IMG/VR virus record: IMGVR_UViG_3300034073_003245
Span: 1-64,000 of that record
Origin: a virus
Strand: one strand, 5' to 3'
Length of the DNA stretch: 64,000 bases
In this document: piece after piece, positions 1-63,282 of the stretch
How the letters are laid out: each line of letters begins with the position of its first letter
Position numbering within the stretch: the stretch's first letter is position 1
Program-made: the position numbers and the translations under genes
Notes under the pieces: generated by a model
Database searches by the model: none
What the model was told of the DNA's origin: nothing
What the model saw: the letters and a program-made list of their open reading frames with translations, nothing else

Positions 1-312
1 AGAAAGGGTCGGTCTAATAGGCTTGATCTTTCTTCGTCTTTGCTCTGCCGCCAACTGTCTACTAGTAAACCCAGCCCATACCCCGTGCATGTCAGCCGGT
101 GGAAACTCTAATGCGTACTCCAAACACTCTTTCTGAACCGGGCAGGTTTTACAGATGGCTCTTGCCTGAGTGATATAGGTAATATCCTTATGTTCCTTGG
201 GGAACATTAGTTGGGTCTTTCCTTTGCATGCAGCAAGGTCAAACCAAGTGGATTCCTGTATATCTACAGATTTATCCAGTTGGGGAACTATAGTGGGGTC
301 TTCATGAATCAC
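1..312 (-). CDS. WhiB-family transcriptional regulator (3' end cut by window edge)
   Basis: Reading leftward from a GTG at 312-310, an open frame runs off the window after 104 codons. The start is supported by a GGGAGG Shine-Dalgarno about 8 bases upstream. Four cysteines fit the WhiB iron-sulfur pattern: C29, then C54-x2-C57-x5-C63. They are followed by a G-V-W-A-G turn (residues 77-81) and a basic tail rich in Arg and Lys. WhiB proteins bind a 4Fe-4S cluster and act with sigma-A; phages of actinobacteria often carry them, which is the strongest host clue in the window. The gene lies downstream of the proteasome-like gene on the same strand, 79 bases away. Confidence 0.85.
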   Translation of the reverse strand, partial: MIHEDPTIVPQLDKSVDIQESTWFDLAACKGKTQLMFPKEHKDITYITQARAICKTCPVQKECLEYALEFPPADMHGVWAGFTSRQLAAEQRRRKIKPIRPTLS

Positions 313-391: not shown

Positions 392-1015
392 TCACTTCTC
401 CTCCGCCTTTATCTCCTGTGTGTAGGCGTGGAATGGACCGCCGGTATACGGGTCACACTTCGCTGCGATTTGAAGACTTTTCAGAACTACTCGTTTTGCC
501 TGAGCAGCAGATAGTCCTTTACTTGCGGTCAGGGCGTGTAGTGACCCGAGCGCATATGCGGCTCCAGTGCCAACGGAGTAGAGCCCCCCGGCCTCTGAAG
601 TCCACGAATAGTCGTTTTCTATGATGTAAATAGTTGCGTTCACAACTACTACGACAGACGACCCCTGTTCTGCCCCCTTTTCCTTCGCCTGTTTCTCCTC
701 CGGCATCGCATATCCCTGTTGCTCAAAACATGATCTAAGAGCAGGGACGAACTTAGAAGTAATGAACTGGTCTAGTTTCTTCCCCCTTAGGTTCGCTGGT
801 ACTGCAGGGGGCTGGAAGACATGGTGAAGAATATTTATCGCGCGGACATCACCTGCGGCTCCTAGTAGATACTTCTTGCTAAGGGCGATCTTGGACTGGC
901 CGTTTCCTAGAGTGGAACTTTGGTACGCGAACCCTCCAGTATCAAAGGAAGAGATTCTTGTGTCAGCGCCGACGACCACATAGTTGTCGCCCTGTATTGC
1001 GGCAATTGTTGTCAT
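392..1015 (-). CDS. Proteasome beta-subunit/HslV-like Ntn hydrolase
   Basis: A 207-residue protein whose N-terminus is M-T-T-I-A-A. Removing Met exposes Thr1, the nucleophile of 20S proteasome beta subunits and HslV. Counting from that Thr, Asp17 and Arg19 (G-A-D-T-R) sit exactly at the conserved family positions. A Lys-Ile pair resembling Lys33 comes about 8 residues late (Lys41), after an insertion rich in Ser, Thr and Gly. G-A-A-G-D follows, as in beta subunits. There is no long propeptide, which resembles HslV more than actinobacterial PrcB. It could be a self-processing threonine peptidase degrading host or phage proteins. No alpha subunit or unfoldase is seen nearby, so how it would be gated is unknown. 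Confidence 0.8.
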   Translation of the reverse strand: MTTIAAIQGDNYVVVGADTRISSFDTGGFAYQSSTLGNGQSKIALSKKYLLGAAGDVRAINILHHVFQPPAVPANLRGKKLDQFITSKFVPALRSCFEQQGYAMPEEKQAKEKGAEQGSSVVVVVNATIYIIENDYSWTSEAGGLYSVGTGAAYALGSLHALTASKGLSAAQAKRVVLKSLQIAAKCDPYTGGPFHAYTQEIKAEEK

Positions 1016-1072
1016 GTAAACCTACTAACTTTCTGAAATTCAGAAATAAATTAGTGGTTCTTTTTTATTGTG

Positions 1073-1279
1073 TCAAGAACGCCATTTTCTAGCGTTGTGC
1101 AAATGCACGGAACCGTACGCAATAGCGCCGGCGATAAAGCCGTACTGTTTCGTGGTAATGGCGTAAATGATCCAAAGACACTCGTTGACAAAAGCGACGA
1201 CCCAGCCCCACCAGCGTCTTTGGCCTACAAGAAATAAGCCGGAAACGCCTACGGCGCTCAGTATCCAAGACCAGGCCAT
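1073..1279 (-). CDS. Small membrane protein, PnuC-like half
   Basis: 68 residues with two or three hydrophobic segments separated by Arg/Trp turns. The pattern R-R-W-W-G-W, then N-E-C-L-W-I-I-Y-A, then a Gln-Tyr-Gly turn recalls one half of the nicotinamide-riboside transporter PnuC, but the protein is far too short to be a full transporter. It ends just before the proteasome-like gene and starts 10 bases after the phosphoesterase gene. It could assemble as a multimer in the host membrane, or be a holin-like peptide; the sequence does not decide this. Confidence 0.6.
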   Translation of the reverse strand: MAWSWILSAVGVSGLFLVGQRRWWGWVVAFVNECLWIIYAITTKQYGFIAGAIAYGSVHLHNARKWRS

Positions 1280-1289
1280 TTAGATTTAA

Positions 1290-2468
1290 CTAAGCCCGGT
1301 ACTCTTTCCCACGGAACATTGACCAGCCGTTGTAGATAGCCATGCACTCGTAGGAGAACTTGTGCTCGCCATCGTCTTCGTAGTTCACGATTCCGATGCC
1401 CTGTTGCCAGTTTTCGTGGCGAACCAGTGGGCGACCGTCAAGGTCTACTCCACCCTTGGTGGAAGGTATAGCACCGTCAATACGGGCTAGACACCCAGGA
1501 GAGGCAGCCATGATGGTGCGAGGACCGTCGTAGTCCTCCCTGGTCTTGTAGGCACACTCAATACGGTGGATGTGCCCATAAATGACCGACGTCTTCTCTG
1601 CATTGAGATATACATGGGCGGTAGACCCAGATGACTTCACGCGATCACCGTGGATAATGCGGAGTTTCTTGTTGACCCAAAAGTCGGCTGCCGGGTATCC
1701 GGGGAAGTATTCAACGCCGAACTCGTCCATTCGGCAGAGATACGGAACGCTCAGAACAGGCCAGGACTCCGGAGTATTGCCCTTTCTGAGGCCATAAGCC
1801 GCTGCGGCATTGGTCAATAGGTACTTAGGCATACGCTCTTCGTGGTTTCCAGCCAGCCAGACGATTCTGGCGTGTGGGGCTGCCGATCTCATTTGGGCAC
1901 AGAACATAGTGGCACGATCAATCGCGGCCTGCGTGGTTTGCGCGTAGGCCGGATAAGTCAAGTATTTGCCCATTTCGGGGAGGTCAAGGTTGTCCCCGAC
2001 GCACACAATCAGTTCCGGCTGGAGTTCCTTGATGACCGACAAGAGGATTGAGATAGCGGCCTCGTCGTGCGTTGGCTCCAGTTCGCCGTTCATATTCCTG
2101 AAGTAACCGATTTGTATATCAGGGGGGATAACGCAGGTTTTGAACCCTGTTGGTGTCTTCGGTTTTGTCGTTGACTTTTGTAGTTGTACGGGCTTGCCCT
2201 GCTGGATTACTGGCCACTCTGGCCCAGTCTCCCATTTGGGGGAAAACTGAATAGCGGCAAGGTCGTGAATCTGAGCCTCGCCCTGCTCATCTTTGAGCAT
2301 TGACTGGTAAAGAGAGACCTTCTTGATGTCCCCAATCTCTGCAAGATCAATATTCTTGCGCTCCAGCATGTCGGCAAGAGTTCCGAGAAGTTTCTTCTTC
2401 ATCTCTGTGGAATTCGCCTGAGACTCTGTTGCCTCAAGATCTTTCAAAAGTTTCTTATTGTCAGCCAT
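1290..2468 (-). CDS. Calcineurin-like metallophosphoesterase
   Basis: 392 residues. The C-terminal two thirds carry the metallophosphoesterase blocks in order: a P-D-I-Q motif (family D-x-H, here Gln replaces His), G-D-N-L-D, G-N-H-E-E, an H-G-D and finally G-H-I-H. These residues hold a two-metal centre that hydrolyses phosphodiesters or phosphomonoesters. About 100 N-terminal residues of unknown fold precede the domain. An in-frame start 16 codons upstream exists, but the ATG at 2468 follows a perfect AGGAGG with 6-base spacing and overlaps the upstream gene by 8 bases. The substrate is unknown; phage relatives are commonly annotated as DNA or nucleotide phosphoesterases. Confidence 0.85.
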   Translation of the reverse strand: MADNKKLLKDLEATESQANSTEMKKKLLGTLADMLERKNIDLAEIGDIKKVSLYQSMLKDEQGEAQIHDLAAIQFSPKWETGPEWPVIQQGKPVQLQKSTTKPKTPTGFKTCVIPPDIQIGYFRNMNGELEPTHDEAAISILLSVIKELQPELIVCVGDNLDLPEMGKYLTYPAYAQTTQAAIDRATMFCAQMRSAAPHARIVWLAGNHEERMPKYLLTNAAAAYGLRKGNTPESWPVLSVPYLCRMDEFGVEYFPGYPAADFWVNKKLRIIHGDRVKSSGSTAHVYLNAEKTSVIYGHIHRIECAYKTREDYDGPRTIMAASPGCLARIDGAIPSTKGGVDLDGRPLVRHENWQQGIGIVNYEDDGEHKFSYECMAIYNGWSMFRGKEYRA

Positions 2469-2724
2469 TCTTGGCCTCCTTAATGCATGGGCACTCTTCT
2501 CCGGAGAAGCATTCACGGCGTTTTTCCCTCAAATGAGTTATTCCTCCGTTATATCCAGACTGTCGGATATGGGGGAGAATCTTTGCGGCGGAAACTTCAG
2601 GGTTTTTCATGATTCGCTCAAAAACCTCAAGAGTTTCTTCGTCAAGGTTTTTCATGAAAACACCAAGCATGCAACGCTTTGGCTCTTTGCTGTTTTCTAG
2701 TTGTAGCAACTTGTCAGCCAACAT
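2461..2724 (-). CDS. Small phage protein, possible DNA-binding
   Basis: 87 residues, mostly helical and charged. The central part (E-E-T-L-E-V-F-E-R-I-M onwards, then H-I-R-Q-S-G-Y-N-G-G-I-T) resembles a helix-turn-helix followed by a Gly turn and a basic helix. A Cys-containing tail (E-C-P-C) ends the protein. AGGAGG sits 5 bases before the ATG. It is the first gene of the leftward unit, transcribed divergently from the winged-helix genes to the right, which would suit a regulator. No named family is recognised. Confidence 0.6.
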   Translation of the reverse strand: MLADKLLQLENSKEPKRCMLGVFMKNLDEETLEVFERIMKNPEVSAAKILPHIRQSGYNGGITHLREKRRECFSGEECPCIKEAKNG

Positions 2725-3964: not shown

Positions 3965-4198
3965 CTAAGCCTTGGCCTTCTTGTCAACCCTGTTGAAAAC
4001 CTCGTTGATTTCTTCAACGCTCAGTTTTCCATCGTCAAGGAATGCTCTGGCCAGACCCTCAATGACAGTGGCGACACCGGCGATTCCAGCCATAAAAACG
4101 GCTTTCCAGAGCGGAACACCGGCAATTGATCCCGCGCCTATAACGCCGAGGCCGTTGGCAGCAAAAACCGCCATAATTCTTAACAGTACTGTTTTCAT
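3965..4198 (-). CDS. Probable holin with EF-hand-like C-terminus
   Basis: 77 residues from ATG 4198. A GTG four codons upstream is possible but has worse spacing to its G-rich leader. Two hydrophobic segments (about residues 3-22 and 27-45) are joined by a short turn and followed by a charged tail with D-D-G-K-L-S-V-E-E-I, which matches half of an EF-hand loop. Small two-segment membrane proteins with such tails are typical phage holins. It lies in the same strand and region as the endolysin. Holin function is inferred from topology and context. Confidence 0.65.
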   Translation of the reverse strand: MKTVLLRIMAVFAANGLGVIGAGSIAGVPLWKAVFMAGIAGVATVIEGLARAFLDDGKLSVEEINEVFNRVDKKAKA

Positions 4199-4221
4199 TT
4201 GAACCCCCACACCCCTGTGGA

Positions 4222-13864: not shown

Positions 13865-14656
13865 CTATTTTTTCAGTCTCAGTCTCTCAAGAATAGAATA
13901 CTTCCCTCTTTCGGTAAGGGCATTGTCTACCCTCACGCGTTCCCTCCTGTATGGAGCAGCAGTGCCCTCAAGAGGGGTTATGTGACCCATGCCAAAACCA
14001 GTGCTGGCCACAAATCTGTAATAAGACTCGTCATTGAATAAGATTTCTTTTGTATTTGACGAACGCTGAAATGGAATCACCATCATCAAGGGTGTTCCCC
14101 ATTTGATAGAAAAAGGAGAGTCTGTCTTAATATTTAAGACAATATTTGCTGTGTGGTAAAAGTCCGTATGAACAACGGCTGGGAGAACGTCGTAATTATT
14201 GTTTGGCTCCCATAGAACCGGCAGAAAAAGCGACGACCACCCAGGCGCTGTCTCAAATCTCCATGGATTAACAATCTTGGGATACTGGGCTTCTCTTGTT
14301 TTGCCGTTTCTGACATCGTTAATAGGACATCCCACGGCAGCCTCGTAATCAAACCCTTCTATTTTGGAAACATCTGTGCCGCCTGAAGCAAACGCAAAGT
14401 TTGCGCCCCTTGTTTCCCATCTTCCTTCATTACTCGGCCTAAAATCAAAATTTGTCCAACAGGGGATGGTGACCCCTATGTTATAGAAGTCATTTATTCC
14501 AGCGCACCTTCTTAGGGAGCCTGGATTTTTATGCAGTCTTTTAAACCAAGACGGATAGGTTTCAACAGAATTAATGAATGGGGGCATCTCCATCAGTCTG
14601 TTGTCAAGCGGGGTAATTCGTATTTGACCAGGCTTTACTTTGGGATTCTTCTTCAT
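13865..14656 (-). CDS. Conserved phage protein next to halogenase
   Basis: 263 residues from ATG 14656 (ATGA overlap with the halogenase stop; another ATG lies two codons upstream). It has a Trp/Pro/Asn-rich composition, with P-S-W-F-K-R-L, a G-S-L-R-R-C-A-G-I segment, V-T-I-P-C-W-T-N-F and F-R-P-S-N-E-G-R-W near the N-terminus, then a beta-rich body. I recall similar proteins beside halogenase genes in cyanophages, but cannot check. The role is unknown. Confidence 0.65.
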   Translation of the reverse strand: MKKNPKVKPGQIRITPLDNRLMEMPPFINSVETYPSWFKRLHKNPGSLRRCAGINDFYNIGVTIPCWTNFDFRPSNEGRWETRGANFAFASGGTDVSKIEGFDYEAAVGCPINDVRNGKTREAQYPKIVNPWRFETAPGWSSLFLPVLWEPNNNYDVLPAVVHTDFYHTANIVLNIKTDSPFSIKWGTPLMMVIPFQRSSNTKEILFNDESYYRFVASTGFGMGHITPLEGTAAPYRRERVRVDNALTERGKYSILERLRLKK

Positions 14657-16152
14657 GACCATTCATCCTCAATTGCGCTGAGTTGCCTCAATGCAACAGC
14701 ATGGTCAATGAGTTCATGGTTATGACGAGACTCCCTCATCTGTGCGGCAACATTTTCAACCTGCGTCCTAATGTGCAATCTGTCAATTGTCCTAGTAGAT
14801 GGCCCAGCGCTAAATACGCCCTGTCCTTGAGCGACATGAGCCATATGGGGAGTGTGGAAAAGTTCCATATGCAAATGAGGAACGTCGGTCCTGTTTGGGG
14901 GTCTCTCTGACCAGATATCAATAAGTTCCTGCAACTCTTCGTTAAGGGGCTTTTCCTTCATCGCCGCCCAGAACGCCGTGTCAGACCTATCGCTGTAGTA
15001 ATGCAGGCGAATCATTGTGAGTATGTTTCTCATAATCTCGCCATACGACTTATTGAAGTGTTTTTGTGACTTTGTGTACGAATGGTCATATGCCGCAAGA
15101 TAGGGAATCATCATTTTAATTTGTTGGATTGAAGAGCCGATGCTTGTTGCTTCTAACGGCTCAACAAAAGAGCCAGCAAGACCAATCGCAACACAGTTTT
15201 TTACCCATACCGAATCAAGGTATCCAGCGTCAAACTTGAAGTGTCTGTAGTTGTCTATCTTGTAGCCAGATATTTTTTCTGCTTCTTTAACAGCCTCATC
15301 TTCTGAACAAAAAGCGGAAGAAAATACATATCCGTTACCACGACGTTGCTGTGTTGGTATTTCCCAAACCCAGCCGCTATCGCCTGCTATCGCCCTTGTA
15401 TAGGGGCGAATTTGACCCGATGGGTCGGACTCTGTTGGAAACGCAATTGCTGAGTCTGTTAAAAGATACTCGCTAAAAGAATTCCACTTCTGATTTCCGA
15501 GTTTTTCCATCAAGACTCTTCTGAACCCAGAAGCATCAAACCAGAAATCGGCCTCAACTGAATCTGCCATATCCGTCTTAACAGATACAATGTTCCCGCT
15601 TTCCGCGTCAAGAACTATGTCATTGACTATTCCATCAACAAACTTAATTGACCTCTTAAAACAAAGCGACACAAAGTATTCATTCAGTTTATTCGTATCA
15701 AAATGAAACTGGTTTGTGGACCTATGGAGTCCATGAACACGTATTTGATTTCTGACAAGGCCTACGGAAGTTGTCTGGTCGGTAAATAATTTTTCGTTCT
15801 CAATGAAATATGCGTAGGAGGCAAACGCGCCCCAGGCAAATATTTCATCAACTTCACTAACGCTGTGGAAATACTTTGGCGTATGAGTAGTCCAGTTTTC
15901 AAATCGGATTCCATACTTGTGGGTTGCGTCGGTTGAGACAATCATCTCCTCAAGGTCTATGTCGCAGTGCTTCATAAACTCAGACCAATGCTCAGTGCTT
16001 CCCTCACCAACACCAATAATGCCTATTTGAGATGAAGAAATAATAGTTACGGGCGCACTTGGAAATGCTTTTCTCAGCATTAGTGCGGTTATTAGTCCTG
16101 CTGTGCCTGAACCAACTATGCCAAATGAAAGAGGTTTTGTTTTTTCCATCAT
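14653..16152 (-). CDS. Flavin-dependent (tryptophan-type) halogenase
   Basis: 499 residues from ATG 16152. Motifs in order: FAD-binding G-S-G-T-A-G-L (14-20), G-V-G-E-G-S-T (47-53), Lys79 in H-K-Y-G-I-R-F-E-N-W aligning with the essential lysine of PrnA/RebH, W-V-W-E-I-P near 260 (the W-x-W-x-I-P signature that blocks monooxygenase activity) and F-V-E-P-L-E-A-T-S near 330. All active-site hallmarks are kept. Such enzymes use FADH2, oxygen and halide to halogenate electron-rich carbons. The cyanophage enzyme VirX1 is a characterised viral member with a preference for iodide. The gene is coupled by ATGA overlaps to the 2OG oxygenase upstream and an unknown downstream. No flavin reductase is present; the host would supply FADH2. 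Confidence 0.93.
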   Translation of the reverse strand: MMEKTKPLSFGIVGSGTAGLITALMLRKAFPSAPVTIISSSQIGIIGVGEGSTEHWSEFMKHCDIDLEEMIVSTDATHKYGIRFENWTTHTPKYFHSVSEVDEIFAWGAFASYAYFIENEKLFTDQTTSVGLVRNQIRVHGLHRSTNQFHFDTNKLNEYFVSLCFKRSIKFVDGIVNDIVLDAESGNIVSVKTDMADSVEADFWFDASGFRRVLMEKLGNQKWNSFSEYLLTDSAIAFPTESDPSGQIRPYTRAIAGDSGWVWEIPTQQRRGNGYVFSSAFCSEDEAVKEAEKISGYKIDNYRHFKFDAGYLDSVWVKNCVAIGLAGSFVEPLEATSIGSSIQQIKMMIPYLAAYDHSYTKSQKHFNKSYGEIMRNILTMIRLHYYSDRSDTAFWAAMKEKPLNEELQELIDIWSERPPNRTDVPHLHMELFHTPHMAHVAQGQGVFSAGPSTRTIDRLHIRTQVENVAAQMRESRHNHELIDHAVALRQLSAIEDEWS

Positions 16153-16730
16153 TGGAACCACGTTACCATTGAATACTTAGTTCCTTTTTGGACGGGATGA
16201 GCGATGTGTGTGTATGGAAAGTTGCTTGGAAAAAGAATCACTGAGCCAGGGTCAAGTTTTGTTGAAAAAGTAAAATTGACAAATTCAAGTTCTCCGCCAA
16301 CTTCTGCTGTCCCGAGGCTTGCTACAAGACTAAAAACTCTTTTATTTTCTGGATGGTGGTCATGGTGCGCTTTGTATTCGGCCATTCCTGTGTATTTAAG
16401 GATTGAGATAAGTTCATGGCTTCCGCCGCTAAGAGAATGGTCTTCAACATAGTCATTGACGACCTCAATGCAGGGGGCGTATATCTCAGACCTAAAGATT
16501 TGAGAAAGTTCAGTCATTCCATATGGGGGCAAAAGACTTGTTGCCATGCAACTCATTGAGGTTCTGTGCTTATTGAGATGTCCAGAACCTCCACCAACTC
16601 TTGAATATTCCCAGAAAAGTTCTGTTTCTTCATCATTTTCTATTGATTGTTCAAGTTTTTGAATGAAATCTTTAGGGTCAAAAACATCTTTGTAAATACT
16701 GATGCACGTTGCTGGATTTTCAAAAATCAT
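16149..16730 (-). CDS. 2-oxoglutarate/Fe(II)-dependent oxygenase (prolyl-4-hydroxylase type)
   Basis: 193 residues. The iron-binding H-x-D occurs in K-A-H-H-D-H-H (about residue 120), the distal histidine in T-H-I-A-H-P-V (about 175) and the 2OG-binding basic residue in K-G-T-K-Y-S. G-G-E-L-E-F and G-S-V-I-L-F-P between them are standard for the double-stranded beta-helix of P4H-like oxygenases. It could hydroxylate a protein side chain or a small molecule. ATGA overlaps on both sides couple it to the halogenase, so the two probably act on one substrate or in one pathway. Confidence 0.88.
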   Translation of the reverse strand: MIFENPATCISIYKDVFDPKDFIQKLEQSIENDEETELFWEYSRVGGGSGHLNKHRTSMSCMATSLLPPYGMTELSQIFRSEIYAPCIEVVNDYVEDHSLSGGSHELISILKYTGMAEYKAHHDHHPENKRVFSLVASLGTAEVGGELEFVNFTFSTKLDPGSVILFPSNFPYTHIAHPVQKGTKYSMVTWFQ

Positions 16731-56276: not shown

Positions 56277-56385
56277 ATCTGTAAATTAGCCAAATAATTT
56301 AAAGATTTATCAATATCTTCAAATTGATACTTCCCTTCGTGCCGGTTTTTATGACCTATTATTTTTGAAGTCACCGAGGAGTCGT

Positions 56386-59300
56386 ATGTCATATAGCAAC
56401 ATTGAGTTCAAGTCAAACCCGGGCCAATTCAACATTGACGAGGCCCAGGGCATCGTTGAGTGTTTCGTGGCGGGCATTGGCAACAAAGACTCGGTAGGCG
56501 ACGTTCTTGTTCCTGGAGCATTTTCAGAAAGCCTTAAGAGAAGAAAGCCTCGCGTTGTGTGGGGCCACAACTGGAATGACCCAATTGGAAAAGTCCTAGA
56601 GATTTATGAGGTTGGCCCTGGAGACGCCAGACTCCCACAGAAGATGCGCCAGGCCGGAATCGGCGGTCTTTACGCCAAAGTGCAATTCAACCTGAATTCG
56701 GAGAAGGGTCGCGAGGCTTTTGCCAACGTGGCTTTCTTCGGCCATGAGCAAGAGTGGTCAATTGGATACAAGACCATTGACTCAATCCATGACCCAGGCG
56801 TCAAGGCGAACATCCTCAAGGAAGTTGAACTTTACGAAGTTTCGCCAGTTCTTCACGGCGCCAACCAGTTGACTGGCACAATTTCTGTAAAGTCAGACGA
56901 TCTGGCCCTGGCCGATGCAGAAAAGGGTTGGGGCATGGGGATGCCACACCACATGATGGGCATGAAGCCGCAGCAACCACAGGTCATCGTTATTAGAGAA
57001 GACGACGATGATGATGACAAGTACGAGTCTGAGAAGCCGATTTTTGCCGAGGGGCTCGCTCAGCCGATTGGCGGACAACAGCGACGTATGCTTGAAAAAG
57101 AAATCGCTGAAAGAACCGGTTCTCAAATCCGCCTAATTGAGGCGACCGAAAACACGGCAGTTTTTTCAAGAATGATGCCTACTGGCGGAACAATGGTTTT
57201 CCGCGTCAGTTATCACACCCCTGACAATTTCAGAACTTTTATGTTTGGCAAGCCGGAACTTGCAGACGGCCAAGTGACAATGCCGGGTGCGACGCAAAAG
57301 CCAAGAACGGTTGTTCCCTCCCAGATGCCATCAATGCCCATGCAGGTTAAGCCCGGCTATTCGCAAGACGAAATGGGGATGTATTCATTCCCTAAGTCTG
57401 GTGAGACGGAAAAGTCTGATCTAGGTTCCCAGATTCAGGCCATTGAGGACATCCTCATGGCTGAAACTGAGGAAAAAGTTGGCAGAACCCTCAATAGAAG
57501 AAATCTTTCAAAACTGAAGTCAGTCATGGAGAGCCTTCAAGAAATAATTGCTTCTGCTGAAAAGGAAATGGACACAAAGGGGTACGTGATCCCGGTTCCA
57601 TTGGAAGAGGCATTTAGCACCAAGCAACTTCTAGATCCAATCTTTGACTATCACAGAGTTGAGACTCAAGTTACAGAAGACGGAATTGTCATTACTTCCG
57701 GAGTTACACAGGAATTCATAGAGGCAATTGGCGTTGCCGAAAAAGCGCTCGGGCGCACGCTGAGGGGCGGCCCGGGAAAAGCGCGCCGCGCCGGGCGCGG
57801 CCTGGCGGCACGCTTTGATCCAAACGCCTGGGACGGAGACGGAGACGGCTTAGTTCAGGAAGGTACACCTTTCCAGCGTCCTGCGATTCCAGGAGTTAAC
57901 GACCGTTCAACTCGCGGAAGAGTTGACCCAGCAGCAGCAACACAGGCCTGGCAAACAGGTCAGCGCGGAATGGCTTCGCGCGGCGGTCGCCGTATCACCT
58001 TGGGCAATGCGAACCCGAATAGTTTGGGCCCGATGTACGGCTATGACCCAGAAGAGCAGGACTTCAGTTCTGAATCTTATTGGGAAGAAGTTTTTACAGA
58101 CAGCGACGATATGTTGCCGTTTTTTCAGGAATGGCTTGAAAAGGAAAAAGGCAAAGAAGCGCTCTGGCATGAACTATCAGATGATGAATTTGAAGAATTG
58201 GTTGATAAGTGGAAGTCAAGCGATGCGTTTGAAAAAGACGTAAAACGCTACGCTGAAATTCAGGCCGATGAAGGAATAGAAGATGGCGAAGCATTTAGGT
58301 CCCTATTCAAGCGGTCAACGCTTGACAAAGTGTGGGTAAGAAACGAACCCAAAGAACGCGGGATGGCATCTCGCGCCGATGTTTTGACAGATCTGGCCAT
58401 AGATAGCGACGTATCTGAAGCAATAGATTCTATTGTCAGAGAAGTGCTTGTTTATTCTGGGACAGGGGATAAAGACAAGATTTCTGACTTGGTTTCAGAC
58501 GCGGCCAGAGAGATTCTTGACTCCATTAATTTTGACTCCATCAAAGACAGCCCTGGTAAAGCAGTTTCTGATTTCAGAAAAAAACTTGTGGAAACACTGT
58601 CAGACGAGGACTTTTTGCGCGAAGCAATGAGGAAAAAGGACGCAATTAATGAGTTTGTTGATGGTTTATACGACGCCGTAAATTCTGCTTTTGAAAAATA
58701 TGAAGATCATCTCAAAAAAACTGGTGGAGACTTTGAAGACTTTGCCGATTTGAAATTTGAACTCCTTGATGACCTTGACGGAAGAGTTTCTAAAATTCTC
58801 AATTCATCGCGCAAATTATTTGGCGAACTAAAATCAAAGAAAACTGAAGACGAATATAAGTCCAGAGATGAACGTAGAAAGTTAATTGCCTCAATACGGG
58901 CAGGGGAACTTCCTAAAGACTGGAGAGGTAGAGAGACAGAAGACCTAGTGGATGGTCGTGTTGCGTATGAGGAAGCACTTGAAGAAATTGTAAACAACAG
59001 CCCAGATGCAGACATTGACGAGTTGATGTCTGACTATATTGAGGCCGTCAGAGAGGGCGCTAGGAAAAATCCGGACAACAGAGTCCTCGCAGTCCTTGCT
59101 GATGTGTACGGAGATGATGGGAAAATAACAGACGAAGAACTCAAGAGAAACCTGCAGGACGTAGCAAGACGCTCTCCATTTAACAAAAAGAGGGGCAGAA
59201 ATGAGAAAGAAGTTCTTCGCGGCATGGCATCTCGCGGTGGCGGGCGTCCTGGCGACCCGATAACCGACCAAGAGCGCAATAAGGTCAAGAGAGACAGCAC

Positions 59301-62300
59301 TGCCGTATCAATGTTCAAAGAGTCAACAGACTACGACAATGCTTTTAATTCTTGGCAAAAAGCCAACCCTGGAAAGTCGGAAAAAGACTTTGAAAAGTCG
59401 CCGGAATTTACTGATGCACTGGTTGAGTTTGACAGATACCTGCTTGACCAAGCATCAAAGGCCACGGGGATTCGCTACAGCAGAACCATGCCATATAGCG
59501 GTGGTCCAATTTCTCTTGAGCAAATGACTGCTAAGCAAATTCTCAGAGACAGAATGTCTGGGATGTCTCTTGATGATGTCGCTGAAAAAATGAATCTGTC
59601 TCGCGAGAAAGTCAGATCGCTTGAGGCTCAGGAAGTTATGCGCCTGAGAGATGATGCTTCACCTAGAGAAATACTTGCCTACAGAACAATGGGCTTGAGC
59701 CTTGAAGACACAGGTCGTCTCTTTGGCATGCGCCCAGAGGACGTGCGCAAAGCAGAAGCCAAAGAGATGGCCGACATCCGCAAGGATATGGACGACAACA
59801 AACTTATTGAACTCCGGATGATGGGCTTTTCTCTTGATGATCTCGCAGAAATCACCGGAGCCAGTAGGGAAGATCTTCGTAAGCGGGAAATACAAAGACT
59901 AAGAAGAGGCCCAGAAGACGGTGGCGGCGCGCGCGGAATGGCTAGCCGTGGAAGGTCAGAAGACTTTGACGGCGGGTATGACGAGGCGTACGGTCCGACA
60001 CCCCCCATAACAAGAAGGCCGCCGGTCGGAGAATGGGATGTCCTCGTGGGTGAAGAAGCCTACGAGAGAGAAGATGCCAGCAGGCAGCAACGCGGCATGG
60101 CAAGCCAAAACGTTAGACCAAACGCCGGTCTAGTTAAGTACTCAACAGATCTATTGAATGAAAAACTTGAAGACCTGGACTCAGATCCTCAACCAGGAAT
60201 GGCCGGAGCGACCCTTGATAAGACATGGGCAGAGGGAGTGCTTGATGGGCTTCGTGACGGCAGACTTTCATCTGATGACGCAATCAACATCATTGGCCTA
60301 GCAGGCAACGATGTCTTTAACGAAGGCAAGAAGCCAGAAGGCGAAAGAAACCAGGCACTCATTGATTCACGTATCAAGTTGAGCAAGAGGCTAAGAAGGT
60401 CTGTCGTTGATTCAATGTCCGAGGGCGACATGGAGGAATACCAGGCAAATCGCCGCAGAAGAATGGGTGCTGATCGTGGAATGAGAAGCACTCTTTCTGA
60501 GGCAAACAGAAGGAGGGATGCCGGCCTTACTCCAGGCACTGGTGATCCATCCCCGGGAACACGTGGCCAAAGAGTGGCATCAAGTGGCGGCGAGTACAAG
60601 CCGAACACAGAAGAAAGAGATGCTGCGATTATTCAAAGGCTGAGAGACATAGGCCTTAGCGATGATGAAATTTCCGAATTGACTGGAATAGACAATCTTC
60701 CAGACGCAGAAAGAGGAATGGCATCAAGAGAAATAAAACTAAACAATCGGCAGATTGATAACGCCTTATCAGAACTTGACAATTTGACAGATGATCGTGG
60801 TTATGAAGATTGGGAATCAATCCAAAAACTGCGTCAGCAATTGTCGGACGCCAAAGACAACAACGGAGTTTTTTCTCCTTCTGAGAGGGATATTGAGGAC
60901 TATCTTGACGAACTAGAAAAACTTGAAGATGCAGGATTTGACGACTGGGAAGGTCTGTCAATGATCCGTTCTATTATTAGTGATTCTAGGGGCGAACGTG
61001 GCATGCGCTCAAGAAACTCCGAAATAGATATGACCCTTGAGGAATACGGTCAACTTCTTGACACTCTTGACAAATATGTTGACGGAAGCGCGGGCGAGGG
61101 AGTCGGCGCTGATGACGACATGCGTGTTCTTCAGCAGGTAATGGACAAACTTGAGGCGAGCCAAAACGCCAATGACGCAGTTGAACTAACGTCTGACGAA
61201 ATTTCTGACTATCTAGACAGTCTTAAGAATATCCGCGACAACGGTCCAATGGAGGACGCGACTTCTGGCGACAAGGCTAATATCAACAAGTTGATCTCAG
61301 CCCTTGAGGGGGCTAGGGATTCACGGGATGGATCCTACGAGACGCCGGCATTAAGGCGTTCCGGCGCAAGAATTAGCGACCAGCAGGGAAGGGCGTTTAG
61401 GTCATCAAGCGGAACTGTTAACCCTCACGAAAAAATTGAGATGACCCTCAACGGCGATGATATCTCAGCAATGGTTGAAGACATTGACGCGCTTCTGAAA
61501 CAAACCCCAAATTCCGCAGCACTTAAGGCTGCTAGAGAAAAGTTCTCAAAGGCCAAGACTGGTGAAAAGATCACCATGGATAAAGACGAGTACGAGCAAC
61601 TCTACAAAGACATTGAGACAGCAAAAACGCAGGGCAATAGGGTCACTTCTGAACTCGCATCACTTCTTGACCAGGCAGCAGAAAGCAAAGATGGCAAGTA
61701 CGTTGACCCCAACCTAAGAGGACGCGGCGGTATGGCGTCTCGTAATAATGGGGCTCCTTCAGACATTACAGAGGCAATGCAGAAGGAATACATCTTCTGG
61801 GCCAGAAATAACCCAAATCTTTTTGTCGCTCAAAGAATCCTGAAGAAGTACGACGATAACGATGGACAATTGTCCGCTAGGGACTGGAGAGCGCTTGACA
61901 CTCTCTACACGAACTTAAGCCCACGTGGAGGCGGTCGTCGCTCTGGAATGAGATCTCGTTCGGGCCGTGATGCGGAAATAGAGAAACAGAAAAAAATAGA
62001 CGCCGAAAGAATGCGATCAGGCTCCACCACGGGATCGGAGAGCGAAAGAATTGGCAGATCTTCAGAGGGAACTGGAGTCTCAGCCAGTGGTCTTGGAGAC
62101 ATTGGCATTCGTGGTGAAGGCGCAAGCCAGAGGACAGAAACACCTGGCCCTTCAGAGAAGAAATTTACAGGGAAGTCATTCAATGAAGTCCAACCAGATA
62201 ACTGGGAATCTCTTGACATTGAGGAGAAGTACGACTGGCTATTCAGCAATGGCAAGCCGGAGGTTTCAGGAATGTCGCCGGCGGCCTATGAGGGCGCTCT

Positions 62301-63282
62301 CAAGAAGTTAATTGCGGAAGAAGAGGCTCTTGAAAAGGCCAATACCCGCAGAGCCAGAAGAGCAGGGGCGGGCCAAGATCGCGGAATGGCATCACGTGGA
62401 AGAACCCCGAGTCAAAATGCCACCTATGACTGGGTTAACAATTTAAGCAGCCCTACTGAAAAATGGCTTGAAGAAAAGAATAAAGCAACCCTTGATTCGT
62501 ATAAGGAATGGAAAAAAAACCTGGGAACTATAACCCCAGGAGGACAAGCGCCAGAGATGCTCAGGGGCATGTCTTCTCGCTCCGGTGGTTCTGGTCGCCA
62601 GGGAAGAACAATGATTACCGACGAAGCAACATACTTCGGTGAGATTGAGAAGAACCTCCCAGTTGAGATAAGAAAAGCAACAGAAGCAAAAGAATCAAAA
62701 ATTTCCCAAGCATTATCGCTGCTGCAGGACATTATCAAGAAACAAGAAGCATCAAAGACCGGTTCAAGAAGAACCAATACGGGAAGCATTTTTGTAACAG
62801 CCGACGAGGCTGATCGTATTCTTGATGCGCTTATGTGGGTTATTGATAGACAGGTCCAAAGAAATGGCAACGAAGAAAGAATATCTGCTTTTGCAAAACT
62901 GGTTGACAAGATGGCACAAGCCGCCATGTCAACTTTTGTAAACAGAGACACATCAGAAATCGGTTCTCGCACTACAAAAAGAACCAACAGCCGAGGAAAA
63001 GAAGTTGAGATCCCCGATGCCGGTATAGGCCTGCCAAGAGGAATGGCTTCTAGTTCTAATTTAGGCGGTTACAATAGACGCAGAACACAAGCGGCGGACA
63101 AAAAATTTGAAGACATCCTTCGTGAGGAAGTTGAAACAAAATTGACTCCAGATCAGCAGAAAAGATACAGCAAACTATACGAAGCAGAAATGGCCAAGTA
63201 CGGCGGCGCTGGGCTGGCATTAAAGAGACAAGAAAAAAAAGAAATACACCAAAGAATCATGAAAGAAATTCTCGGCCAGTAA
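56386..63282 (+). CDS. Giant prohead protease with repeat-punctuated extension
   Basis: 2298 residues from ATG 56386 (GAGGAG 4 bases upstream; a TTG seven codons earlier is rejected). Residues about 1-175 are an HK97/U35-type prohead protease: G-I-V-E-C-F-V-A-G, G-A-F, V-V-W-G-H-N-W, W-S-I-G-Y and E-V-S-P-V. This domain normally ends near 200 residues. From about 471 a motif R-G-(L/M)-(A/R/S)-(A/S)-(R/S) recurs 14 times: 471, 527, 658, 945, 1183, 1236, 1364, 1443, 1538, 1780, 1852, 1999, 2060, 2218. After the first copy comes D-P-N-A-W-D-G-D-G-D-G, a calcium-loop-like motif. Segments between are helical and charged. Residues about 1047-1175 hold three helix-turn-helix-like units. Later segments repeat an L-T-S-D-E-I-S-D-Y-L-type module. 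It may be a polyprotein cut at these sites during head maturation. Confidence 0.85.
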   Translation: MSYSNIEFKSNPGQFNIDEAQGIVECFVAGIGNKDSVGDVLVPGAFSESLKRRKPRVVWGHNWNDPIGKVLEIYEVGPGDARLPQKMRQAGIGGLYAKVQFNLNSEKGREAFANVAFFGHEQEWSIGYKTIDSIHDPGVKANILKEVELYEVSPVLHGANQLTGTISVKSDDLALADAEKGWGMGMPHHMMGMKPQQPQVIVIREDDDDDDKYESEKPIFAEGLAQPIGGQQRRMLEKEIAERTGSQIRLIEATENTAVFSRMMPTGGTMVFRVSYHTPDNFRTFMFGKPELADGQVTMPGATQKPRTVVPSQMPSMPMQVKPGYSQDEMGMYSFPKSGETEKSDLGSQIQAIEDILMAETEEKVGRTLNRRNLSKLKSVMESLQEIIASAEKEMDTKGYVIPVPLEEAFSTKQLLDPIFDYHRVETQVTEDGIVITSGVTQEFIEAIGVAEKALGRTLRGGPGKARRAGRGLAARFDPNAWDGDGDGLVQEGTPFQRPAIPGVNDRSTRGRVDPAAATQAWQTGQRGMASRGGRRITLGNANPNSLGPMYGYDPEEQDFSSESYWEEVFTDSDDMLPFFQEWLEKEKGKEALWHELSDDEFEELVDKWKSSDAFEKDVKRYAEIQADEGIEDGEAFRSLFKRSTLDKVWVRNEPKERGMASRADVLTDLAIDSDVSEAIDSIVREVLVYSGTGDKDKISDLVSDAAREILDSINFDSIKDSPGKAVSDFRKKLVETLSDEDFLREAMRKKDAINEFVDGLYDAVNSAFEKYEDHLKKTGGDFEDFADLKFELLDDLDGRVSKILNSSRKLFGELKSKKTEDEYKSRDERRKLIASIRAGELPKDWRGRETEDLVDGRVAYEEALEEIVNNSPDADIDELMSDYIEAVREGARKNPDNRVLAVLADVYGDDGKITDEELKRNLQDVARRSPFNKKRGRNEKEVLRGMASRGGGRPGDPITDQERNKVKRDSTAVSMFKESTDYDNAFNSWQKANPGKSEKDFEKSPEFTDALVEFDRYLLDQASKATGIRYSRTMPYSGGPISLEQMTAKQILRDRMSGMSLDDVAEKMNLSREKVRSLEAQEVMRLRDDASPREILAYRTMGLSLEDTGRLFGMRPEDVRKAEAKEMADIRKDMDDNKLIELRMMGFSLDDLAEITGASREDLRKREIQRLRRGPEDGGGARGMASRGRSEDFDGGYDEAYGPTPPITRRPPVGEWDVLVGEEAYEREDASRQQRGMASQNVRPNAGLVKYSTDLLNEKLEDLDSDPQPGMAGATLDKTWAEGVLDGLRDGRLSSDDAINIIGLAGNDVFNEGKKPEGERNQALIDSRIKLSKRLRRSVVDSMSEGDMEEYQANRRRRMGADRGMRSTLSEANRRRDAGLTPGTGDPSPGTRGQRVASSGGEYKPNTEERDAAIIQRLRDIGLSDDEISELTGIDNLPDAERGMASREIKLNNRQIDNALSELDNLTDDRGYEDWESIQKLRQQLSDAKDNNGVFSPSERDIEDYLDELEKLEDAGFDDWEGLSMIRSIISDSRGERGMRSRNSEIDMTLEEYGQLLDTLDKYVDGSAGEGVGADDDMRVLQQVMDKLEASQNANDAVELTSDEISDYLDSLKNIRDNGPMEDATSGDKANINKLISALEGARDSRDGSYETPALRRSGARISDQQGRAFRSSSGTVNPHEKIEMTLNGDDISAMVEDIDALLKQTPNSAALKAAREKFSKAKTGEKITMDKDEYEQLYKDIETAKTQGNRVTSELASLLDQAAESKDGKYVDPNLRGRGGMASRNNGAPSDITEAMQKEYIFWARNNPNLFVAQRILKKYDDNDGQLSARDWRALDTLYTNLSPRGGGRRSGMRSRSGRDAEIEKQKKIDAERMRSGSTTGSESERIGRSSEGTGVSASGLGDIGIRGEGASQRTETPGPSEKKFTGKSFNEVQPDNWESLDIEEKYDWLFSNGKPEVSGMSPAAYEGALKKLIAEEEALEKANTRRARRAGAGQDRGMASRGRTPSQNATYDWVNNLSSPTEKWLEEKNKATLDSYKEWKKNLGTITPGGQAPEMLRGMSSRSGGSGRQGRTMITDEATYFGEIEKNLPVEIRKATEAKESKISQALSLLQDIIKKQEASKTGSRRTNTGSIFVTADEADRILDALMWVIDRQVQRNGNEERISAFAKLVDKMAQAAMSTFVNRDTSEIGSRTTKRTNSRGKEVEIPDAGIGLPRGMASSSNLGGYNRRRTQAADKKFEDILREEVETKLTPDQQKRYSKLYEAEMAKYGGAGLALKRQEKKEIHQRIMKEILGQ
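57796..63054 (+). repeat. Dispersed RGMASR-coding repeats (14 copies)
   Basis: Copies begin at 57796 (R-G-L-A-A-R variant), 57964, 58357, 59218, 59932, 60091, 60475, 60712, 60997, 61723, 61939, 62380, 62563 and 63037. Most are R-G-M-A-S-R. Variants are R-G-M-R-S-R, R-G-M-S-S-R, S-G-M-R-S-R, R-G-M-R-S-T, R-G-M-A-S-S and R-G-M-A-S-Q. Codon use differs between copies (CGC, CGT, AGA or AGG for the first Arg), so the protein motif, not the DNA, is kept. Confidence 0.9.
59524..59910 (+). repeat. Three tandem helix-turn-helix-like units inside the protease extension
   Basis: Residues about 1047-1175 contain three copies of about 38-41 residues. Units carry G-M-S-L-D-D-V-A-E-K-M-N-L-S-R-E, G-L-S-L-E-D-T-G-R-L-F-G-M-R-P-E and G-F-S-L-D-D-L-A-E-I-T-G-A-S-R-E. 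Each resembles a sigma-factor region-4 or LuxR-type helix-turn-helix. A shorter fourth relative (G-L-S-D-D-E-I-S-E-L-T-G-I) occurs near residue 1425. Confidence 0.75.

Follow-up and report, generated by a model that had tools for sequence, protein, structure and literature searches.

The window analysed here, bases 1-64000 of the 85,716-bp viral record IMGVR_UViG_3300034073_003245, encodes on its minus strand at 392-1015 a genuine threonine hydrolase with the proteasome (N-terminal nucleophile, Ntn) fold. The record itself is a fragment, the first base of which lies inside a WhiB gene. We place the family of the window protein among the group I proteasome homologues, without assigning it to a subfamily; by the tests run, it is not HslV, PrcB or PPH. 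The protein probably works as an active and self-compartmentalising threonine peptidase on the HslV/BPH-like branch, within a family that is specialised to freshwater actinophages. In large-phage relatives, outside the window, the peptidase is constantly linked to genes for an E1, a JAB protease and an ATPase of the CDC48/PAN type (PAN, proteasome-activating nucleotidase), which was unexpected.

392-1015, minus strand: proteasome-like threonine peptidase of group I, HslV/BPH-type, 207 residues with an MTT start (profiles, model and alignments)

Sequence and Fold of the Window Peptidase

The open reading frame (ORF; N-terminal sequence MTTIAAIQGDNYVVVGADTRISS) begins at an ATG that is the first start codon past a stop when ATG, GTG and TTG are considered, so that a propeptide is impossible with any of the three. 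With Thr numbered as residue 1 after removal of the Met, the residues of catalytic type are Thr1, Asp17, Lys41 and Gly54, the last being the counterpart of the oxyanion Gly47, together with Asp187 and Thr190, and Arg19 stands at its beta position as well. An earlier note on this DNA, made from the letters alone, had placed Thr1, Asp17 and Arg19 at proteasome beta positions and described a Lys of a 'KI' pair as displaced by an 8-residue insertion; both statements hold, Lys41 lying eight positions beyond Lys33 of the proteasome. In the AlphaFold2 model the extra 8 residues are part of the hairpin between strands 20-24 and 30-35, ahead of the catalytic Lys; the insertion is missing from several relatives and shorter in Actinomycetia phage DSL-LC01. 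Just upstream of the start codon lies a 15-bp near-perfect palindrome (TTCTGAAATTCAGAA, window 1031-1045; one copy in the window), a possible operator.

The protein was matched by Pfam PF00227 above the model cut-off (E = 2e-6) and by PHROG 1040, 'peptidase HslV family' (E = 2e-20), the latter being matched by 16 of 16 diverse phage members tested, the window protein among them. The AlphaFold2 model, built with 27 natural relatives (pLDDT 84, pTM 0.82), has the Ntn alpha-beta-beta-alpha sandwich on which the earlier note had made its proposal of a phage-encoded proteasome-like threonine hydrolase depend, and Pfam, PHROG, AlphaFold2 and Foldseek all agree on that proposal. Foldseek ranked BPH first (2.5e-11) and HslV next, and VIA-align superposed 173 residues of the model on epoxomicin-bound BPH (Z 19.5, root-mean-square deviation 2.6); all matches returned by the two programs were proteasome-type, with BPH, HslV and 20S beta as the nearest solved folds. 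The alignment profile, run against the PDB, scored 53.6 bits with HslV and 42.9 bits with BPH and also matched eukaryotic beta5. Helices 57-65 and 78-99 (H1 and H2), which are of the ring-forming type, are present in the model, and a charged 20-residue linker (100-119) joins H2 to strand 120-125.

Within the superfamily, the NCBIfam models for HslV, archaeal beta and bacterial beta gave weak matches far under their equivalog cut-offs. The HslV model TIGR03692 reached 26.5 bits against a cut-off of 157.75, and the bacterial 20S beta (PrcB) model TIGR03690 reached 21.8 against 191.9 bits. Traits of PrcB were not found either, there being no in-frame upstream start for a propeptide and, with a single PF00227 match in the whole 85,716-bp record, no gene for an alpha partner. 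PPH proteins comprise ~140 residues and are without helix H2, whereas the window protein has 207 residues and both helices. It is also devoid of an S78 prohead protease domain, which the window phage encodes in a separate gene (56446-56883).

Conservation, Distribution and Host

Scanning viral contigs with the peptidase yielded at least 129 relatives, 80 of which were kept for analysis. None of 48 distinct relatives departs from T1, T2, D17, K41, G51, G54, G148, G150, D187, T190 or G191; position 149 is occupied by Ser or Thr, and position 19, which is not invariant, is Arg in 46 and Gln in 2. The T1, D17, catalytic Lys, Gly, Asp and Thr columns show no variation either in a set of 16 phage proteins of far greater divergence; the nucleophile, the loss of which in homologues the earlier note would have counted against its proposal, is thus kept in every protein of both sets. 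The ratio of nonsynonymous to synonymous substitution rates (dN/dS, NG86) has a median of 0.043 over 221 close pairs (range 0.005-0.156), and the family is under strong purifying selection.

The actinobacterial host that the earlier note had assumed is supported by the WhiB gene adjoining the peptidase and by WhiB in 21 of the 28 records searched; six of the seven records lacking it are contigs of 18-44 kb. Most relatives reside in such WhiB-bearing actinophages. More distant ones occur in isolated actinophages, namely Arthrobacter phages Hum25 and Pitbull and Microbacterium phage Pumpernickel, and among isolated-phage relatives the peptidase stands beside ThyX/tRNA genes or HNH genes. One scan of genome contigs had as its sole yield a phage contig in a metagenome-assembled genome labelled 'Gammaproteobacteria'. 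This contig (L092; L and G numbers are our own handles) is an actinophage contig with WhiB, lysis cassette and peptidase, and misbinning is the likely cause of its label. Phage homologues of the proteasome superfamily are an established family, and the window peptidase is neither a singleton nor unprecedented.

Genomic Neighbourhood

The following features of the window bear on the context of the peptidase gene.

1-312, minus strand: WhiB-family regulator, truncated by the contig start, directly downstream of the peptidase (PF02467 at 55-246, E = 2.9e-16)
1073-1279, minus strand: small membrane protein of 68 residues between phosphoesterase and peptidase (PHROG 2421; weak PnuC-like match)
1290-2516, minus strand: calcineurin-like metallophosphoesterase of 408 residues (PHROG 20266, E = 8.7e-81)
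3965-4210, minus strand: holin-like small protein; its lysis cassette lies upstream of the phosphoesterase and peptidase genes (PHROG 443, lysis/holin, E = 4.8e-6)
56446-56883, plus strand: S78-type prohead protease domain within a 2305-residue ORF at 56365-63282 (PF04586, E = 1.5e-7)

A complete WhiB copy (109 residues) is present in L002, and the peptidase-WhiB order recurs in DSL-LC01 and in L092, where the lysis-phosphoesterase-peptidase order of the window is repeated as well. In 63 of 81 loci, the gene immediately before the peptidase encodes a metallophosphoesterase (~390 residues) and often overlaps or abuts the peptidase start, with stop-start coupling; the small membrane protein is not kept at its spot in most relatives. 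The window-type phages (group B) have lysis genes before the peptidase and WhiB after it. In group A, TerL and lysis genes come first, then the peptidase, then the genes for portal, a scaffold-like protein and the major head protein. The genes that come after the peptidase in ~50 of the 81 loci are one for a small membrane-like protein, portal (PHROG 64), one for a coiled protein of scaffold-like type and one for the major head protein (PHROG 1357). Group C consists of large actinophage records of up to 216 kb that are without the phosphoesterase and carry the peptidase beside a Zn-ribbon gene. The S78 domain at 56446-56883 is the ordinary head-maturation protease of the window phage.

Elsewhere, the window encodes a cytochrome P450 (11718-12929, plus strand; PF00067, 7.3e-23) and a tryptophan halogenase (14653-16161, minus strand; PF04820, 3.8e-100), the latter also carried by DSL-LC01. 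Giant ORFs of 2305, 1902, 1177 and 778 residues were encountered (window 56365-63282, plus strand; L083:1858-16781), one of them being the S78 prohead protease with its long extension, and the motif FDPNAxDGDxDGxVQxGTPFxRP is shared by at least two of these ORFs.

Candidate Partners and the Block of Large Actinophages

Profile searches of the fragmentary window record found no PF00004, AAA_2, ThiF (E1), JAB or ClpP match, no HslU (PF07724) and no ubiquitin-like gene; no HslU-like gene was seen among the relatives inspected, and ClpP was not found in 27 records searched. The remark of the earlier note that no partner subunit lies nearby therefore stands for the window record with its single PF00227 match, but it does not extend to the large relatives, which carry a CDC48/PAN-type ATPase and genes of a ubiquitin-like system upstream of the peptidase. 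Other ATPase candidates were set aside. The AAA_2 matches in five large phages, considered as an HslU/ClpX-type partner, represent a ClpA/B D2-like protein of 473-475 residues that adjoins a RecA-like gene and lies away from the peptidase, and the AAA genes of group B (241-256 residues) and of DSL-LC01 (339 residues), considered as unfoldases, are MoxR/CobS-like ATPases by inspection. The D2-like AAA+ protein (L099:3682-5109, L102:3629-5050) is of single-ring type with a conserved GTGFNKN loop, occurs in large actinophages without ClpP and might dock on host ClpP.

L111:7140-20713, also L117-L149, outside the window: complete block including the peptidase (profile matches and gene order)

The gene order in the large relatives is JAB, E1 (ThiF), a ~83-residue Gly-ended protein, a CDC48/PAN-type AAA protein, two E2-like proteins and, further downstream, the peptidase. 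Here, E1, JAB and AAA are supported by profiles, and the ubiquitin-like (Ubl) protein and the E2 proteins are candidates put forward on other grounds. The AAA protein (534-540 residues) has CDC48 (2.9e-35) and PAN (1e-33) as its best NCBIfam matches, both scores being under the curated cut-offs, and is related to these proteins without being an equivalog of either. Directly upstream of the 83-residue gene and AAA lies the ThiF-like E1 gene (PF00899, 2.8e-11; best NCBIfam match PRTRC ThiF), with PF00899 above cut-off in all six records that hold the E1 region. The preceding JAB protein (537-590 residues) scored above the Prok-JAB cut-off (PF14464) in 13 of 13 records, and of the 12 copies read, 11 have an intact metal-site motif, HxHx7Sx2D (HSHPxxxAYASGTD).

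The ~83-residue protein, encoded between E1 and AAA at 9650-9898 in L111, ends in ...RRAGEKG, and most copies have a C-terminal Gly. Pfam, NCBIfam and PDB profiles gave no support for a ubiquitin-like protein, and by hhalign combined with shuffles its similarity to ubiquitin and to MoaD was not significant; it is position, size and the C-terminal Gly that make it a candidate. Three copies (L129:1464-1715, L130:8281-8532, L142:9177-9428) have two extra C-terminal residues (SL or NI) after GEKG and in this resemble a precursor awaiting trimming before activation. Each of the two tandem proteins downstream of AAA has exactly one Cys that is shared by all of 23 distinct sequences; these Cys residues are embedded in the motifs PNxYxDxRIC and NFYxxGxLC. 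One of them matched Prok-E2_D (PF14460) weakly (E = 0.031). A model of the first (pLDDT 76, pTM 0.54) gave no significant match in Foldseek, and its VIA-align rows were nearly all E2 enzymes at a modest Z of 4.5-5.6. The two are candidate E2 proteins (UBC fold, catalytic Cys), an assignment of moderate strength.

To avoid circularity, the linkage was assessed by a scan of the viral collection in which only the AAA alignment served as query; scans with a single AAA or E2-like protein retrieved no more than the closest copies. The alignment scan retrieved 34 loci, all with E1, the 83-residue gene and AAA in order and, where the sequence extends far enough, with the E2-like pair. The peptidase was found in 30 of the 33 AAA-positive records searched, the remaining three ending soon after the AAA gene. 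Peptidase and AAA form 31 gene pairs (one record having two sets), and in all 31 the peptidase is encoded on the AAA strand, at a distance of 9.6-15.2 kb in the downstream direction, with Thr1 kept. The intervening ~10 kb harbour genes for a single-stranded-DNA-binding-like protein and a uracil-DNA glycosylase, among others. Since AAA identity to the query goes down to 50% among the scanned loci, the block is at least old. L106 and L107, located on one 267,766-bp record, represent two diverged complete E1-AAA-E2-peptidase sets, which arose by duplication or from two genomes joined in assembly. The searches for Gp23 and S77 ran without a positive control, and the large phages are therefore not labelled T4-like. 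In the open-access literature, no phage was found described as encoding an E1-JAB-AAA-proteasome set, subscription papers being outside the search.

Proposed Mechanism and Alternatives

If the window protein is the active, self-compartmentalising peptidase that we favour, host methionine aminopeptidase would remove the Met and thereby expose Thr1, and the subunits would stack as a closed double ring with the active sites facing inward, double rings being what subunits of HslV/BPH type form. Substrates would reach the ring interior unfolded, and the charged 20-residue linker after H2 may serve as a BPH-like pore loop. In the large actinophages, the phage CDC48/PAN-type ATPase would most likely feed the peptidase, with substrates perhaps first tagged with the small Gly-ended protein of the phage. 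In the window phage, feeding might fall to an AAA+ protein of the host; alternatively, the peptidase might act late in infection on proteins already unfolded or cleaved. Its targets could be host defence or regulatory proteins, or host protein in bulk that is recycled to amino acids; our preferred guess is selective removal of host proteins.

Some observations weigh against this picture. BPH, the nearest solved relative, is inactive on model substrates in vitro. Moreover, the E1/AAA/JAB block is missing from the majority of relatives (those of groups A and B, with the window among them) and is thus dispensable for the peptidase. The linkage of peptidase and block in the large phages is constant but not one of adjacency, and as ~10 kb with unrelated genes separate AAA and peptidase, the shared synteny of one lineage could suffice to explain it. 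A more far-reaching idea, possible but tentative, is that a ubiquitin-proteasome-like pathway is encoded in full by large freshwater actinophages, composed of JAB, E1, the small Gly-ended modifier, two E2-like proteins, a CDC48/PAN-type unfoldase and the peptidase, and that the window peptidase would be the proteolytic core of this pathway in a lineage that uses it with host ATPases.

Less likely in our estimation is an ATP-independent ring that stands alone, without an unfoldase, and that would supply phage synthesis late in infection by trimming unfolded host protein or peptides. No AAA unfoldase was found in the window record, the model has a long pore linker, BPH is without a partner ATPase, and the gene occupies a late-module site beside lysis genes, all of which would be in line with such a role; however, the record is fragmentary, the host could supply an ATPase, and in the large phages linkage of the peptidase to the CDC48/PAN-type ATPase is without exception.

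A prohead (head-maturation) protease recruited from the proteasome superfamily for clearing scaffold is improbable because the window phage has a separate S78 protease, as do relatives G006 and G014 and DSL-LC01. This role would suit the ~50 of 81 loci in which portal, scaffold-like and major head genes follow the peptidase and in the records of which no S78 or ClpP-type protease was found, but the head genes of the window phage lie on the opposite strand in another module, and other carriers have unrelated neighbours (ThyX/tRNA, HNH or Zn-ribbon genes). We give still less credence to a connectase-like enzyme, that is, a specific processing enzyme or ligase with one dedicated substrate. The 8 extra residues are close to the connectase insertion site and BPH is likewise inactive on generic substrates, yet the insertion is short and inconstant among relatives, and helices H1 and H2 of ring-forming type are present. 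The suggestion of the earlier note that the protein joins the host 20S proteasome, or poisons or modifies it by mixed assembly with PrcB/PrcA, is very improbable: actinobacterial hosts can carry a 20S proteasome and the fold is that of its subunits, but identity to PrcB chains is ~17-21% in structural alignments, the bacterial-beta equivalog cut-off is missed by far, BPH and HslV are nearest, a propeptide is absent, and the catalytic residues, which a structural poison would not need, are under strong selection.

As for its significance, the family supplies actinophage members of a superfamily for which an earlier survey had no AAH in actinobacteria-specific phages (Fuchs et al. 2021, PMC8665760). 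If the link seen in the large relatives is functional, viruses carry a self-contained pathway of targeted degradation, which, if true, would bear on phage removal of host proteins and on the occurrence and evolution of ubiquitin-proteasome-like systems; the large relatives make a phage pathway of this kind directly testable.

Relation to Described Proteases and Pathways

Fuchs et al. 2021 (PMC8665760) distinguish HslV, BPH, AAH, CPH and PPH as group I proteasome homologues, with PPH and AAH carried by phages, and their survey reported for the new families neither a co-occurring AAA+ partner nor a genomic context that points to function. Like AAH and PPH, the window family consists of group I homologues that occur in phages. 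Among cellular proteins encoded on plasmids, the nearest, from rhizobia and Streptomyces, show 27-30% identity and a distribution as for AAH; these AAH-like proteins carry the motifs GFTSSFR and FSxGVxGPF, whereas the window family has GAAGDxRAINIL and DPYTGxPF, and the two form separate branches. One AAH-like homologue (L094:6001-6546) is located in a nif region (nifQ, nifS, nifW, rpoN) of a Sinorhizobium symbiotic plasmid.

With BPH (5ovs/5ovt/5ovu), its best fold match, the window protein shares the lack of a propeptide and the long pore linker, and BPH has no known unfoldase. In contrast, identity is ~20%, the linker of the window protein is less acidic, the 8-residue insertion precedes its catalytic Lys, and BPH resides in proteobacterial chromosomes instead of actinophage genomes. 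HslV (ClpQ), the best PDB profile match, has the MTT start and Thr1/Asp17/Lys in common with the window protein. The HslV pore link is short, with entry gated by the unfoldase, and the long linker of BPH has been tied to the lack of an unfoldase that controls entry (PMC5777263, PMC8665760); the window protein differs from HslV in its long linker and in Asp187/Thr190, which resemble Asp166/Ser169 of proteasome beta. The PHROG 1040 label 'peptidase HslV family' is accordingly broad and implies an HslU partner, none of which was found in the window record. The DSL-LC01 protein (WJZ48484.1), annotated but not discussed in its paper, is 46.6% identical to the window peptidase and likewise followed by WhiB, but has a shorter insertion and a longer, basic C-terminus.

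The block of the large relatives, and of these only, is reminiscent of the archaeal SAMP-UbaA-proteasome system and of bacterial E1-E2-JAB-Ub-like operons (PMC4895103, PMC1779556) in combining E1/ThiF, JAB, candidate E2 proteins and a small Gly-ended protein with an ATPase and a proteasome-like peptidase in one genome. It differs from them in that its Ubl and E2 components are putative, its peptidase is of the HslV/BPH type and not 20S, and the whole set is encoded by phages.
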